DNA of 64,000 nucleotides from Streptomyces sp. NBC_00539 (GTDB lineage: Bacteria > Actinomycetota > Actinomycetes > Streptomycetales > Streptomycetaceae), in the NCBI RefSeq assembly GCF_036346105.1, contig NZ_CP107811.1, forward strand, positions 2,796,501 to 2,860,500, given 5' to 3'. Positions 4,064 to 59,552 of the stretch are shown one piece after another (within the stretch, counting starts at the first letter, position 1; every line of letters starts with the position of its first letter). The position numbers and the translations under genes were made by a program. The notes under the pieces are model-generated. The model was not told the DNA's origin. It saw only the letters and a list, made by a program, of their open reading frames with translations, and ran no database searches.

Positions 4064-4327
4064 TCAGCTGCCGAGGTTGCTGAGCGGCACGCCGCCGAGG
4101 AGGCTGGTGACCGTACCGAGCGCCTCGCCCGGGTCGCTCGCGTCCCGGCCTTCCTTGGCACCCATGTGCTGCTGGCTGGTGAGCCCCTGGACGGCGCCGG
4201 TGGCGGTGCCCAGCGCGTCGGTCAGACCGACGGCCGGGACGGCGGCGGAGGCGGAACCGGCGGCGACGGCGGCGAAGGCGGCACCCAGGGCGGCGGCACC
4301 GAGCGTCTTGGCAGCTGACTTCTTCAT
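4064..4327 (-). CDS. small secreted protein
   Basis: An 87-residue product with a clear Sec signal peptide (KK, hydrophobic Ala-rich core, cleavage after SASA), leaving a mature peptide of about 60 residues rich in Gly, Thr and Leu (LGTATGAVQGLT, LGTVTSLLGGVPL). AAGGA lies 8 nt before the ATG at 4327, which is better than the TTG one codon upstream. There are no cysteines and no enzyme motifs. The pattern resembles small exported Streptomyces proteins of unknown role. Confidence 0.75.
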   Translation of the reverse strand: MKKSAAKTLGAAALGAAFAAVAAGSASAAVPAVGLTDALGTATGAVQGLTSQQHMGAKEGRDASDPGEALGTVTSLLGGVPLSNLGS

Positions 4328-4415
4328 CAAAATCGTCCTTGCGACGGGGAATTGAGCGGCTCCGCAAACTAGTCACTTCAAACCCCGGCCTGCAAACATC
4401 CTTAAATATGAGGAA

Positions 4416-4443
4416 GCGTCCGGGAATAACTCTTCCCGGACGC
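4416..4443 (-). terminator. hairpin downstream of add
   Basis: A perfect 10-bp inverted repeat, GCGTCCGGGA / TCCCGGACGC, with an 8-nt loop, lies 23 bp beyond the add stop codon on the minus strand. There is no long T-run, as is usual for Streptomyces terminators. Confidence 0.7.
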
Positions 4444-4465
4444 CCCACTCATGTCATGCCACGGC

Positions 4466-5614
4466 CTAAGCCGAGACGGATCCGCTGGTGGAAGCGGTCT
4501 GACGGAAGAGCCACTCGGACTTGAGCTCCGCATAGCCCGGCTTGATCACGTCGTTGATCATCGCCAGTCGTTCATCGAAAGGAATGAACGCGGACTTCAT
4601 CGCATTGACGGTGAACCACTGCATGTCTTCCAGCGTGTAACCGAAAGTCTCGACCAGGTGCTCGAACTCGCGGCTCATGCTGGTACCGCTCATCAGCCGG
4701 TTGTCGGTGTTGACGGTCAGCCGGAAGTGCAGTTTGCGCAGCAGGCCGATCGGGTGCTCGGCGTACGAGGCGGCGGCGGCCGTCTGCAGGTTCGAGGTCG
4801 GGCACATCTCCAGGGGGATGCGCTTGTCCCGGACGTAGGACGCCAGACGGCCGAGCTTCACGGAGCCGTCGGCGGAGACCTCGATGTCGTCGATGATCTT
4901 CACGCCGTGACCCAGGCGGTCGGCGCCGCACCACTGCAGGGCCTGCCAGATCGACGGCAGGCCGAAGGCCTCGCCCGCGTGGATCGTGAAGTGGTTGTTC
5001 TCGCGCTTGAGGTACTCGAAGGCGTCGAGGTGGCGGGTGGGGGGGAACCCGGCCTCGGCGCCGGCGATGTCGAAGCCGACCACGCCGTTGTCGCGGTAGC
5101 GGTTGGCCAGCTCGGCGATCTCCAGGGCGCGGGCCGCGTGGCGCATCGCGGTCAGCAGGGCCCCGATGCGGATGCGGTGGCCGTTCGCCTTGGCGCGGCG
5201 CTCTCCCTCGCGGAAGCCGTCGTTCACCGCCTCGACGACCTCTTCGAGGGTCAGGCCGGCTTCCAGGTGCTGCTCGGGGGCGTAGCGGATCTCGGCGTAC
5301 ACGACGCCGTCCTCGGCCAGGTCCTCGGCGCACTCGGCGGCCACGCGGAAGAGCGCCGCCTTCGTCTGCATGACGGCGCAGGTGTGCGCGAACGTCTCCA
5401 GGTAGCGCGGCAGGGAGCCGGAGTCGGCGGCTTCCCGGAACCAGACGCCCAGCTTGTCGGCGTCGTTCTCGGGGAGGTTCTCGTAGCCGACCTCGCGGGC
5501 CAGCTCGATGATGGTCCCGGGGCGCAGGCCACCGTCGAGGTGGTCGTGGAGGAGCACCTTGGGGGCACGGCGGATCTGATCCGGGGTGGGCAGGTTCGGG
5601 GTGTCGCTCGTCAT
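4466..5614 (-). CDS. add: adenosine deaminase
   Basis: A 382-residue TIM-barrel deaminase that converts adenosine or deoxyadenosine to inosine. Metal and active-site motifs are in order: HDHLDGG near residue 23, HAGEAFG near 215, HGVKIID near 240 and NTDNRLM near 305. The last motif has Asn where animal and enteric enzymes have a second Asp (NTDD). The ATG at 5614 fits the family N-terminus. A CTACGCGCGTAG palindrome lies 16 bp upstream, shared with the deoA, ATPase and bmp genes 8-14 kb away, which ties the gene to the nucleoside salvage regulon although it is not in that operon. Confidence 0.95.
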
Positions 5615-5630
5615 CTGGGCACTCTAGCTC

Positions 5631-5642
5631 CTACGCGCGTAG
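5631..5642. promoter_or_regulatory. CTACGCGCGTAG operator, add copy
   Basis: A perfect 12-bp palindrome immediately upstream of add. The same sequence, or a one-base variant, precedes deoA, the nucleoside ABC ATPase gene and bmp. The repressor or activator is not identifiable from this window. Confidence 0.75.
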
Positions 5643-5728
5643 AGCGCGGGCTCGGCGTGAGCCGTCGATACGTAACAGTGACCGTACGGAGGGGTGGCGT
5701 ACACCTGTCGGTCTGAGACTGTTCCGCC

Positions 5729-6442
5729 ATGGCACAGCATGCGCCGCCGGCGCGCGGTGCCCGCCTCGGGCGGGCGGCCGGCGCGAACGGCTCGGTCTCG
5801 ACGGTCAGTGGTGTGGTGCTCCTGCTTCCCGGGGGGTCCAGATTCTCCCCCGGTCCGGTGCGTCCGCTCGCGCGGGCGCTGGCCCGGGCGGGCGGGGCGC
5901 ACGGCCTGGCCGCGCACCCGGTGCTGCACGGGACGGGCGCCCGCGAGGACGACGCCCGGTGGGCGGCGGACGAGGCGGTACGCAGGTACGGGGACGTGCC
6001 GGTCTGCCTGGCGGGGTACGACGCCGGCGGCCTGGCGGCCCTGCGGGCGGCCGGGCACGGGGCAGTGCAGGCGGTGCTGGCGCTGGCCCCCTCCACCGAC
6101 GCGACGACGGACTCCCCGGAGCCGGTGAAGCAGCTGGCGGGGCGGCAGGTGCTGATCGTGCACGGGACCAACGACGGGCGCTGCGATCCGGAGTCGTCCT
6201 TCCTGCTGGCGGCGCGGGCGAAGAAGGCGAATCGTTCCACGTGCCGGTTCGAGGTGCATTCCGACGGGCACGGGCTGCGCGAGCACCAGGCGGAAGTGGT
6301 CGCCCTCGGGGTGGACTTCGTTCTGGGCGCGATGTTCTCGGGGCGGTACTCGCGGCCGGTGACGGACGCGCTCGCCGCGCCTCCGCCGCTGGGGCTGCGA
6401 ATGCCGCTGGCCTCGGGTTTCGGGCGCTCGCTGCGGGGCTGA
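5729..6442 (+). CDS. alpha/beta-hydrolase-fold protein with atypical nucleophile
   Basis: A 237-residue protein with the order expected of an alpha/beta hydrolase: the strand VVLLLPGG, a nucleophile-elbow position AGYDAGG (near residue 96), the acid segment VLIVHGTNDGRCDP (near 145), and a histidine segment HSDGHGLREH (near 182). The elbow has Asp instead of Ser (GxDxG), as in haloalkane and haloacetate dehalogenases, so the enzyme may not be an esterase or may be inactive. It is divergent from add; their promoters share the 5615-5728 gap that holds the add operator. Confidence 0.7.
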   Translation: MAQHAPPARGARLGRAAGANGSVSTVSGVVLLLPGGSRFSPGPVRPLARALARAGGAHGLAAHPVLHGTGAREDDARWAADEAVRRYGDVPVCLAGYDAGGLAALRAAGHGAVQAVLALAPSTDATTDSPEPVKQLAGRQVLIVHGTNDGRCDPESSFLLAARAKKANRSTCRFEVHSDGHGLREHQAEVVALGVDFVLGAMFSGRYSRPVTDALAAPPPLGLRMPLASGFGRSLRG

Positions 6443-55190: not shown

Positions 55191-56192
55191 TCAGCCGCCC
55201 GGCCGGAAGGCTTCCAGCGCCGCCGTGTGGTGGCGGAGGGTGACCGTCCAGTCGGCGGCCGGGCCGGCGGTCAGGACGGCCCACTTGGCGCCGTCCTGGG
55301 TGCGCGAGACGCGCTCCACGCCCCGGCGCCGCCCGTGGGACTCCACGCTGTCGTACTCGTAGACCAGTTCCGCGGCGTCCGCGGAGCCCGGCACCTGTCC
55401 GACGCGGATCTCCTCGTAGCCCGAGGTGCGGGCGCGCAGGTCGGTGGAGGCGCCTTGGACGGCCCCGAGCGGGCTGAGATCCGCTTCGCTGACGCGGAAG
55501 ACCTGGAGCAGGGAAGTCCGGTCGGGTGAGCGGTAGAAGACGCCGCTCTCGGCCTCCTCCCGAAGCCAGCCGGTGGGCACGGCGAGGGTGAACCCCTTGG
55601 GATCCCGGACCGTCTCGTGCGCCGCGTCCGCACTGGGGCCGCTGCTCGCGGACGGGCTCCCGGAGGGGCTCCCGGACGACGAGCCGAGCGGCGACCGCGA
55701 CCCGGACGCGCCGCCGTCCGCCGGGGCGCTCGACGCCGACGCCCCCGCGTGCGGTGACGGCTGACCGGAGCCGCGCTCGACGAACCAGACGGCGGCCGCC
55801 CCGATCGCGAGGGCGGCCACCGCGATGCCGGCCGTGGTCGGCGTCAGCCACCGCCCGCCCGGCCCCCCGGGGCGCGGGGGCCCCGGCGGTACGGGCGGCG
55901 GTGGCGGCGGGCCCGGCAGCAGGTGCGGGTCGTACGGGGGCGGCACCGAAGGCAGGCCCCCCTCGTGCACCGGCGGCCGGCTCCCGTCGTAGGCCTGCGG
56001 GGGGCTCCCGTCGTAAGCCTGCGGTGCGGTCGGCGCCAGCGGGTCGTACGCCGGCGGTGCCTGCGGCGTCGCGGCGGGGGCGGAAGCGGGGCCCGGGGCC
56101 GGGGTACCGGCGGGGGCGCCGGCCGGGGCGTCCCACACCCAGCGCTGCGTGCGCGCGTCCCAGCGGGGTGCACCCTGCGGCTGCGGGGCCAC
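55191..56192 (-). CDS. membrane protein with Pro-rich N-terminus
   Basis: A 333-residue protein. Residues 1-110 are Pro/Ala/Gln/Tyr-rich and cytoplasmic (repeats such as PQAYDGS), one membrane helix lies at about 118-137, a Ser/Gly/Pro linker follows, and the extracellular domain from about residue 195 (DPKGFTLAVPTGWLREE) resembles the substrate-binding-like C-terminal domains of Streptomyces kinase-associated proteins. It is the third gene in a three-gene operon; the ATG at 56192 is 3 bp after the preceding stop. Confidence 0.7.
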   Translation of the reverse strand: MAPQPQGAPRWDARTQRWVWDAPAGAPAGTPAPGPASAPAATPQAPPAYDPLAPTAPQAYDGSPPQAYDGSRPPVHEGGLPSVPPPYDPHLLPGPPPPPPVPPGPPRPGGPGGRWLTPTTAGIAVAALAIGAAAVWFVERGSGQPSPHAGASASSAPADGGASGSRSPLGSSSGSPSGSPSASSGPSADAAHETVRDPKGFTLAVPTGWLREEAESGVFYRSPDRTSLLQVFRVSEADLSPLGAVQGASTDLRARTSGYEEIRVGQVPGSADAAELVYEYDSVESHGRRRGVERVSRTQDGAKWAVLTAGPAADWTVTLRHHTAALEAFRPGG

Positions 56193-56195
56193 GGC

Positions 56196-56597
56196 TCAGC
56201 CCCCCAGCGTGATCAGCAGCTCGCCCAGCGCGGTCGCCGCACAGACCGACTCCACCAGCGGGGCCCAGCGCTCCAGCGCCCCGCGCAGCCGGGCGGCGAG
56301 CCCGGGCCGGATCTCCCGCGCCGTCTCCAGCTCCTCGGCGGCCCCGTCCAGTTCGGCGTCCAGCGCCGACCGGTCCTCGCCCCGGGGCAGCCGTACGAGG
56401 GCGGCGCGCAGCTCCAGTACGGCGTCGAGCAGCACCTGCGGCGTGGGCGCCTCGGCGCCGGCGCCCCCGTGCCGGACGGTGTTCGTGTTGTTGCTGCCGC
56501 CGATGCTGAACGCGCTGCCGGTGATGTCGCCGAGCGTCACGGACGGCTCCGCCGGGCCCCCGCCCGTCGTGCCCGCACTGTTCCCGTCAGTTGCCAC
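56196..56597 (-). CDS. small protein with N-terminal GSAFSIGGSNNTNT motif
   Basis: A 133-residue protein. Residues 1-26 are Gly/Pro/Thr-rich, residues 27-40 read GSAFSIGGSNNTNT, and the rest is a helical domain (LLDAVLELRAALVRLP, then LDGAAEELETAREI). The motif is nearly identical to that at the C-terminus of the preceding gene product. The start overlaps that gene's stop by 11 nt. No known domain was recognised. Related Gly/Asn-rich motifs in other bacteria seed amyloid-like contacts, but I have only sequence resemblance. Confidence 0.7.
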   Translation of the reverse strand: MATDGNSAGTTGGGPAEPSVTLGDITGSAFSIGGSNNTNTVRHGGAGAEAPTPQVLLDAVLELRAALVRLPRGEDRSALDAELDGAAEELETAREIRPGLAARLRGALERWAPLVESVCAATALGELLITLGG

Positions 56598-56677
56598 CGC
56601 TGCTCCCCTTGCCCCTGCCGCTGTTGTGGTGACCGGTGTTGGTGTTGTTGCTGCCGCCGACGCTGAACGCGCTGCCG
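56481..56677. repeat. duplicated 40-bp segment encoding the shared motif
   Basis: Segments 56481-56520 and 56638-56677 match at 38 of 40 bases by eye and encode the same peptide motif in two neighbouring genes, 157 bp apart. Nucleotide similarity at this level suggests recent duplication or strong constraint. Confidence 0.85.
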
Positions 56678-58317
56678 TTCACCGACTGGATGAACACCCC
56701 GCCCTCGGCGACGTTGACGGCGCGCTTCGCGAACTCCTCGGTGTGCCAGCCCGCTTCGTGCAAGGCGACGATAACGCCGCCGACCACACGGTCCTGAACC
56801 GTTTTCAGGAAGCGGTCCAGGTCCATCAGGTGGAACAGCGACCCGTTGTCCTCGGAGGCGAGTTCGCGCACCGACAGGCGCGGCCCCTCGGGCCGGGCGC
56901 CGCCGTGGCCGCCGGTCACGATCCGCCACCAGCTCGCGAGGCCACGGCCCAGGGTGGTGACGGAGGCCGCGATGGAGCCCGGGGTCTGCCGCAGGGCCGC
57001 GACCGCCTTCCCGAAGCCGTTGTTGTTGCGGTAGCGCTGGGCGTCGGCGTCCGCGTTGTGGAAGGCGACGTCCACGGGGAGCAGCACGTGCGGCGCCACT
57101 TCCAGCATCATCATGCCGCCCTGGGTGTGGACCCGTACGAAGACGGTGACGACGAGGTTCTCGTCCCAGCCGCCCACCCGCACGCGCAGGAAGTGCCTGC
57201 GGCGCTCGCCGCCCTCCTCGACGGCTGCGGCCCGCTGCTCCGCGTACTGGGCGTGGATGGCCTGGGCCGCGTCCCGGTGCGGCAGCCCGTTGGCGGGCAG
57301 GAACACGCACTCGTCGACGACGAGTTCCCGCAGCCGGTCACCGACGGCCGCCTCGGCCTCCAGGGAGCCGTGCGGCGAGGGCACCCGCAGCCGCTCCAGC
57401 AGCGGCGCGATCTTGGAGATGAGGTGGGCGTTGGTGACCGGCGTCGGCTTGCGGTCGGGGCCGAGGTCCTCGCGCGGGCGCAGTTCGACGGAGAGCTGCC
57501 AGGGCCGGTAGGCGTCACCGGCGCCGCAGAACGGGTCGTTGACGTCGTACATGATCACCGGCGCGTGCTGCTCGGCCCGGATACGGGCGCGCACGCGATG
57601 GAAGCGCACACCCGGGGCCGCTTCGGCCGGGTCGCCGGCGTGGTCGGCGTAGCGGCGCTCGTTGAGGTCGGTGGCGATGGTCCGGTAGACGTGGCCGCGC
57701 TGGAGGCCCACGACGACGACCACGGCGGCGAAGACGACGGGCACCCACCAGAAGACGGCGGTGGCCGCCGCGGTGTTCCCGAAGGACGGGGTGAAGAACA
57801 GGGCGCCGGGGCCGCCCGAGTCGCCGAGCATGCTCATCAGGGCGAATCCGCCGAAGGCGAGGAAGAGCAGGGTGAAGGCGAGCACCACGAAGACGTAGAC
57901 GCGCAGGATCACGGCCAGCGCCCGCAGCAGCGGCGTGCCCCGGCCGCGCAGCCAGTCGGCGAAGCTCAGCAGGAGGAACGGGACGAGCAGCAGCATGAGC
58001 GCGCCACCGGTGAGGAGGGAGCCGACGAACCAGGCTCCGAGCACCCCGGCCGCCCAGCCGAGTTCGGCGCGGCGCGCGCGCAGCGCGTGGGCGAGCACCC
58101 GGGAGGCGTCGAAGCCGTAGGAGGGGGCGACGATGCGCTCTTCGTGGACGTAGAGCTCGTCGATGACCCGGTCGCGGAATCCGGCGTCGAGGTACGTACC
58201 CGCGCAGAGGAACCGGCCGGCCTCGCTGAGCGAGGGGTGTACCGGCGGGCGGCCGGCGCGGGGATCGCCCCAGCCGGCCGGACCGGTCGACTGGTGGGGA
58301 ATCGGGGTCTCGGTCAC
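56587..58317 (-). CDS. multi-pass membrane protein with C-terminal GSAFSVGGSNNTNT motif
   Basis: A 576-residue protein. An N-terminal cytoplasmic part (1-85), four hydrophobic helices (about 86-205), and a large cytoplasmic region with RPWQLSVELRPREDLG and the distinctive KAVAALRQTPGSIAASVT. The C-terminal 30 residues are GSAFSVGGSNNTNT (548-561) plus a Gly/Ser/His tail. It is first in a three-gene operon. I cannot name a known family. The layout, a membrane-bound sensor-like body with a motif tail, suggests signalling to the motif-bearing protein encoded next. Confidence 0.75.
   Translation of the reverse strand: MTETPIPHQSTGPAGWGDPRAGRPPVHPSLSEAGRFLCAGTYLDAGFRDRVIDELYVHEERIVAPSYGFDASRVLAHALRARRAELGWAAGVLGAWFVGSLLTGGALMLLLVPFLLLSFADWLRGRGTPLLRALAVILRVYVFVVLAFTLLFLAFGGFALMSMLGDSGGPGALFFTPSFGNTAAATAVFWWVPVVFAAVVVVVGLQRGHVYRTIATDLNERRYADHAGDPAEAAPGVRFHRVRARIRAEQHAPVIMYDVNDPFCGAGDAYRPWQLSVELRPREDLGPDRKPTPVTNAHLISKIAPLLERLRVPSPHGSLEAEAAVGDRLRELVVDECVFLPANGLPHRDAAQAIHAQYAEQRAAAVEEGGERRRHFLRVRVGGWDENLVVTVFVRVHTQGGMMMLEVAPHVLLPVDVAFHNADADAQRYRNNNGFGKAVAALRQTPGSIAASVTTLGRGLASWWRIVTGGHGGARPEGPRLSVRELASEDNGSLFHLMDLDRFLKTVQDRVVGGVIVALHEAGWHTEEFAKRAVNVAEGGVFIQSVNGSAFSVGGSNNTNTGHHNSGRGKGSSGGN

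Positions 58318-58454: not shown

Positions 58455-59552
<1,098 letters not shown>

Follow-up and report, generated by a model that had tools for sequence, protein, structure and literature searches.

Two adjacent genes of Streptomyces sp. NBC_00539 encode proteins that bear nearly the same short peptide tag at facing ends, near the C-terminus of a membrane receptor-like protein (A) and near the N-terminus of the small protein encoded next to it (B). Together with a third gene (C) they lie in the window, by which is meant the whole analysed stretch of 64,000 nucleotides of contig NZ_CP107811.1 (positions 2,796,501 to 2,860,500). We lean towards the view that A belongs to a family of membrane receptors, other than NOD-like receptors (NLRs), that recruits its partner through matched-tag, probably cross-beta, co-assembly, with A as the receptor and B as its dedicated downstream partner. 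As judged from the evolution of the sequences, co-assembly through matched tags is well supported, and since the gene pair is conserved, the tag co-varies between the two genes, and homologous pairs join the same kind of receptor to TIR or PNP_UDP domains, co-assembly of a sensor with its partner is the best reading of the data. A preliminary description of this DNA had proposed that the membrane protein passes a signal to the small protein by co-assembly of a motif likened to the RIP homotypic interaction motif (RHIM); pairing, co-variation and the matched TIR and PNP_UDP pairs favour the passing of a signal in this way, whereas membership in RHIM is not supported.

Conservation and co-variation of the tag pair

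The consensus of the tag at the end of A and the start of B is GSAFS(V/I)GGSNNTNT, and the positions and sequences of both copies, as well as the overlap of 11 nt between the two genes, are as first described. In a sample made up of the best 80 of 85 loci by homology to A alone, all titled Streptomyces, 79 of 80 loci have the tag in one form or another close to the C-terminus of A, and in 79 of 80 a B gene comes next; the pair is thus conserved. The sole exception, L075 (loci are referred to by L numbers), has neither tag nor B, and a C-like start comes after its A. Elsewhere the tag lies about 100 residues ahead of the end of A (L076), the receptor tag is degenerate (L074), or the receptor frame is broken with its tail still readable (L079, L080). 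The tag takes several forms among these loci (SAFSVGGSNNTNT, GAVGIGDHNTIT, GNVTLGNHNTVT, SAVNFGANGTANN and others), and the forms in A and B tend to agree. When 40 sequences of A are aligned, the column that holds its core glycine, G554, does not vary, the aligned glycine of the tagless L075 being incidental; the core glycine of B, G33, is one of five invariant columns among 47 B sequences. The residues by which A-type and B-type tags differ are maintained across species.

The agreement between the two tags of a locus exceeds that between tags of different loci. For 78 pairs of close loci, tag identity was 0.674 in cognate and 0.420 in mismatched combinations, in a test that left out L075 (no B) as well as L079 and L080 (broken receptor frame). 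L076 was entered with a shift of one residue, an error that depresses the observed value. Twelve representatives with less than 60% identity in A gave 0.583 and 0.364, respectively, and at none of six thresholds did any of 20,000 permutations reach the cognate excess. The excess persists inside tag classes, being reached in 7 of 20,000 permutations for the 18 distinct pairs of the window class, and in 0 and 339 of 20,000 for two other classes of 46 and 7 pairs. The co-variation of the motif between both genes, to which the preliminary description had looked, is thereby borne out.

Divergent receptors and interchangeable partners

Within the genus, 183 of 199 genomes have a match to the protein query P0002 (E ≤ 0.001), many of the matches being weak or partial. 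Further loci were picked for variety among the listed matches, and not randomly, 40 being taken from matches in the genus and 38 from matches in the genus, phylum and order. Divergent receptors carry quite different tags that are mostly repeated in the next gene, as in L121 (receptor GGAVASGERASAKH, partner GGAVAAGERASAED), L219 (receptor GDDNRVYANNNRGTMYAHN, partner GDDNRVYANDNRGTLYAHN), L151 (receptor NNSFVHGDNNTTNSGTQ, partner NNSFVTGNNNTTNSGTQ) and L211 (receptor NNTISNNAVGDSAQV, partner GNTISNNAVGDHARV). Altogether a tagged or B-type partner is present at 147 of 158 receptor loci (80, 40 and 38, with L244 probably repeating L075). Among GG-type pairs, a loose pattern finds at least two copies of the tag in 13 of 22 partners, and one copy in 20 of 22 receptors with none in the other two.

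From a set of 146 pairs, 15 representatives with less than 45% receptor identity were compared, and in either direction 14 of the 15 scored highest with their cognate, at mean tail-to-partner scores of 83.7 for cognate and 35.8 for mismatched combinations. A selection-matched control, which gave mismatched loci the same choice of candidates, again yielded 14 of 15, the miss being L212, which favours L140. When the partners were shuffled with their composition preserved, 128 of 146 pairs beat all 200 shuffles; these covered the first 60 partner residues, so that a later second copy of the tag (L216, L234) stays in place and raises the background. Chance or composition as the cause of the matching is disfavoured by the permutation, representative and shuffle tests together. 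The set of 146 kept L152, whose receptor frame of 148 aa gives no real tail, and left out six of the 40 loci, namely L120, L135, L136, L134 at a contig end, L139 with its fragmented receptor and L138, where the tagged pair belongs to the main family, as well as L208, L220, L224 and L244 from the 38 usable ones. Partners were chosen by eye from the downstream frames at 34 loci and by best score among downstream candidates at another 34.

By sequence signature the 146 partners comprise 123 small proteins, 19 TIR-like and four PNP-like proteins. All seven TIR-like partners tested in Pfam match PF10137, the CAP12/Pycsar TIR domain (E 2e-25 to 1e-27), and both PNP-like partners tested match PF01048, PNP_UDP (E 5e-15 and 2e-15); the TIR partner of L151 and the PNP partner of L156 also match PADLOC PDC and effector models. 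The five TIR-paired receptors form one clade and the two PNP-paired receptors another (100/100 each) in a tree built from 31 receptors, the deep forks of which are weak. Within the order, the PNP-type receptor is matched in 91 of 198 genomes, from 3 of 6 genera. Passages in PMC8195603 and PMC12881547 name TIR and PNP domains as effectors of bacterial or fungal immunity, and as these domains occupy the same position as B, B may likewise act as an effector.

The frame ahead of A in the window (58455-59489), which we take to be mdh, has counterparts in 14 of 79 further loci, a total that includes a stray of 10 bases and the main-family L138; one chromosomal place can therefore house pairs with quite different tags. 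In a plasmid collection, four records match the TIR-type receptor, three of which were analysed; at these loci, found with the receptor query alone, the tags match in three of three cases, with scores of 55, 116 and 83. One is an 11.9 Mb record from Nonomuraea, and another is a mobilizable Streptomyces plasmid. In the Nonomuraea pair (L248), receptor tail and partner share several copies of a (S/T)N(F/Y)GNAPG-type repeat, while on the mobilizable S. griseorubiginosus plasmid NZ_CP107767.1 (L249) the tag-matched pair stands just after genes for an AAA family ATPase and an ATP-dependent endonuclease.

A possible mechanism and its alternatives

In the mechanism that we propose, A would be anchored in the membrane with one copy of the tag on an unfolded C-terminal tail, and B would carry one locus-specific copy on an unfolded N-terminal arm. 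On sensing a trigger, A would cluster at the membrane, where its tails could nucleate a cross-beta stack that the tags of B join by templating, so that the helical domain of B would become concentrated and activated. In homologous pairs, receptors of the same type would recruit a different output, either a TIR domain or a PNP_UDP phosphorylase, and the sequence of the tag would decide which partner answers. We infer that the two proteins physically co-assemble, that they do so in cross-beta form, that the signal runs from A to B, and that cell death or defence is the outcome. The occurrence of TIR and PNP_UDP domains in homologous pairs suggests a general logic of membrane receptor, matched sticky tag and interchangeable output domain. 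Streptomyces and some other actinobacteria may even possess an NLR-free amyloid-signalling network in which one receptor family addresses interchangeable outputs, be it a helical bundle, a TIR domain or a nucleoside phosphorylase, by mutually exclusive barcodes borne on unfolded tails, a wider proposal that we regard as quite possible, if a little short of probable.

AlphaFold models place both tags in low-confidence, disordered tails beside folded domains, the predicted local distance difference test (pLDDT) score of the receptor-side tag being below 50. Comparison of the predicted fold of A returned just weak START/Bet v 1-like rows (residues about 260-525), a weak lead that would be in keeping with a trigger of A in the form of a lipid or another small ligand. 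For B, the comparison returned four-helix bundles of the pediocin-type bacteriocin-immunity kind, at a level within the range of a common arrangement.

A number of observations weigh against signalling by co-assembly. PADLOC models match none of A, B and C (E ≤ 0.1), B is without a hydrophobic segment above the threshold used and has no known effector activity, and the presence of mdh in 70 of the 80 close loci indicates a stable chromosomal place and not a defence island. In the samples searched, the family is thin outside the genus: within the phylum, the TIR-type receptor is matched in 11 of 396 genomes, from 4 of 236 genera (E ≤ 1e-8). No Pfam family was found for 10 tag peptides at E ≤ 10, in a search whose HMMER filters can miss short motifs. 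At a finer grain, a tail ranks its own partner first in only 20 of 30, 27 of 62 and 29 of 126 cases, in sets where many pairs share a tag class and where the mean cognate excess remains (0 of 20,000 permutations each). In the shuffle test, seven of 146 pairs were reached by one or two of 200 shuffles and 11 by three or more; the latter include L152, where truncation of the receptor leaves nothing to match.

Some receptors, moreover, appear to stand alone. L120, L208, L224 and perhaps L220 have a tag-like tail and no partner found at the locus, L135 and L136 have degenerate tails and again no partner found, and L075 and L244 have neither tag nor partner, while L134, L139 and L152 are cut or broken loci. 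Alignment of the six partnerless tails to all frames at their loci brought out no convincing partner; the highest scores (62 for L135 and 57 for L220) are low-complexity matches by eye. Such orphan tails count against a strictly obligatory pairing. The case in which one gene alone keeps the motif, regarded in the preliminary description as unfavourable to its proposal, thus occurs in a few distant tag-like tails without partners and in the partner of L152 on its own, and in none of the 80 close loci. At L152 (3680-4482), a locus with mdh, the receptor frame stops at 148 aa and a tagged small partner comes after it.

Alternatively, A and B could be bound one to one in a stable complex by their tags, acting as small beta-docking or beta-roll segments that neither propagate nor signal, and A, B and C together could form a constitutive envelope or transport complex. 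Such an arrangement would suit the stable place beside mdh, the finding of the single-pass C in 66 of the 80 loci, and the resemblance by eye of GGAVAAGERASA-type tags to beta-roll repeats. We consider it unlikely, however, as the same device recurs in homologous receptors with TIR and PNP_UDP, which are domains of switchable effectors, as both tags are predicted to be disordered, and as the tags vary widely among receptor branches yet agree within pairs. A separate question is whether B is an adaptor or inhibitor, holding A off or bridging it to a further protein such as C. This is compatible with matched-tag co-assembly, since it concerns the role of B alone, and we see in it a real if lesser possibility; that the enzyme-domain protein itself bears the tag in TIR and PNP pairs speaks against it.

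It is very improbable that the tags arose by local duplication, have no joint function and owe their likeness to gene conversion. The two copies in the window, whose starts are separated by 157 nt and a single gene junction, differ at 2 of 39 nt, as might be expected of such an origin, but this near-identity can be explained by codon bias together with near-identical amino acids. Where A and B of one genome have the same residue, their codons agree in 559 of 704 cases (0.794; 79 pairs, L076 left out), as against 0.762 between genomes and 532.6 of 704 predicted from pooled usage, so that synonymous codons disfavour gene conversion as the source of the matching. Strong matching of the protein with barely more than background matching of the DNA is what selection on the peptide would be expected to produce. 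The persistence of A-type and B-type residue differences across species, the invariant core glycine in both alignments, and the joint absence of tag and B from L075 also argue against conversion.

Relation to known signalling motifs

The nearest comparison for matched-tag co-assembly is with the bacterial amyloid signalling sequences (BASS), in which, according to passages in PMC7889193 and PMC8086366, the N-terminus of an NLR is joined to the C-terminus of a Bell protein. As described in the same passages, BASS1-10 likewise consist of a short motif shared by adjacent or overlapping genes at the protein ends, occur in filamentous actinobacteria, and accompany small helical domains and less often TIR. 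The same motif in two adjacent genes, co-varying, is a mark of BASS that A and B display, and with regard to the effectors expected of BASS (Bell, TIR, CHAT), related pairs have PF10137 and PF01048, the B of the window being a helical bundle. A differs in being a membrane protein in which no NTPase domain was found (40 receptor sequences give seven scattered weak Pfam families, none of them an NTPase, and eight distant receptors behave likewise), and the ends are reversed, with the tag at the C-terminus of A and the N-terminus of B. This, together with the absence of Pfam matches to the 10 tag peptides, suggests that A and B resemble BASS in their working and are not members as judged by receptor, orientation and Pfam comparison.

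The core of RHIM is I/V-Q-I/V/L/C-G. In contrast, the core of the tag is F-S-V-G in A and F-S-I-G in B, with S in the place of Q, and as the 10 tag peptides mentioned above found no match in Pfam at E ≤ 10 and related tags are unlike RHIM, membership in RHIM, to which the tag was first likened, is not supported. The window tag shares with RHIM, fungal PP and BASS3 the general layout of hydrophobic-x-hydrophobic-G-x-x-N, but related pairs here use quite different tags. Other Streptomyces have the tag in a GDHNTVT form, which by eye is similar to the G-D-Q-N-x-V-S of the fungal GDQN motif, and the PNP_UDP partners of this bacterial family recall PUASM, a PNP_UDP-linked motif; both are presented, in parts of PMC12261475 and PMC9815663, respectively, as fungal and NLR-linked. 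As outlined in part of PMC8086366, HET-s has r1 and r2 copies and the NLR NWD2 one r0; the GG-type class here similarly has one receptor copy and two effector copies, but the likeness is one of copy number and the receptor is not an NLR.

Among uncharacterised families, DUF5955 (PF19380) is weakly matched by 28 of 47 B sequences (best E 0.0018), not including the B of the window, and no protein of its own genome exceeds the curated cut-off. Small partners as a class are mostly DUF5955-like, and the B of the window bears a distant likeness to this family by way of its relatives. When 11 small partners from outside the main family were run, L159 exceeded the DUF5955 cut-off, L128, L144, L206, L219 and L225 matched under it, and L121, L158, L207, L215 and L236 had no match to this family. 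A reciprocal search found DUF5955 in 87 of 101 genomes, but its ordinary proteins L250 and L259 (readable among 13 loci, plus strand) carry no tag in the stretch examined. No description of the genes treated here was found in the openly licensed papers to which the literature search was limited, in keeping with the earlier remark that no account of the trio was known.

A 2021 review raises, in a passage of PMC7889193, the question of whether bacteria and fungi have signalling amyloids independent of NLRs. The NLR-free network, if true, would answer this question for bacteria, and several insulated pairs could operate in one hypha. Dozens of receptor-partner pairs with many tag variants, including TIR and PNP_UDP partners of known enzyme class, provide natural material for tests, in which non-cognate combinations would supply ready controls. 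Should the tags assemble, they would constitute natural assembly tags that are possibly orthogonal to one another, and would open a first way into conserved, uncharacterised Streptomyces genes beside mdh.

The genes of the window and their relatives

A, B and C follow one another in series on the minus strand after mdh, C beginning 3 nt past B (Table 1). One hydrophobic segment (residues 116-141) makes C a single-pass protein. A relative of C is present in 66 of the 80 close loci and in 15 of 79 others (tblastn, E ≤ 1e-6), and as none of the latter is a TIR or PNP locus, C belongs to this branch and not to the general device of receptor, tag and output domain. The frame after B bears a loose WDxxTQxW-like signature in all 73 loci with enough sequence; over all frames the pattern occurs in 199 of 2751, the 73 included. 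The preliminary description had suggested that the third gene may be part of the unit, and the trio is indeed real at this locus, C being likely part of the unit.

Table 1. Features of the A, B and C genes in the window.
Feature	Window position	Strand	Description
A	56587-58317	-	576 aa, membrane receptor-like protein
A, hydrophobic segments			residues about 91-125, 127-166 and 182-210
A, large domain			residues about 240-536
A, disordered tail			residues 542-576, bears the tag
Receptor-side tag	56635-56676	-	GSAFSVGGSNNTNT, residues 548-561 of A
B	56196-56597	-	133 aa, disordered and tagged N-terminus, then four-helix bundle 53-132
Partner-side tag	56478-56519	-	GSAFSIGGSNNTNT, residues 27-40 of B
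C	55191-56192	-	333 aa, N-terminal RWDxxTQRW signature

At E ≤ 1, A has no Pfam or NCBIfam family, and B has merely two Pfam families at chance level (E 0.21 and 0.28). C matches two NCBIfam models, NF041528 (E 0.00013) and TIGR03931, type VII secretion-associated (E 0.0081), both under the cut-off. A search of the genome with the B protein gave no third copy of the tag at E ≤ 1; the third match (E = 0.41) covers residues 59-119 of B, outside the tag. A second A-like protein of 605 aa is encoded in the same genome (L245, reverse frame 4200-6017, near 5,661,000 of C1); its C-terminus is without a tag, and no small tagged partner was noticed by eye in its frame list. The weak matches in many other Streptomyces genomes may represent the same tagless sister family. 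In Streptomyces bambusae SK60 (L014, 5032-5541), a collagen-like stretch of GPx repeats is inserted between the helices of B, and the Pfam Collagen family is matched in one of 47 B sequences (E 0.00039).

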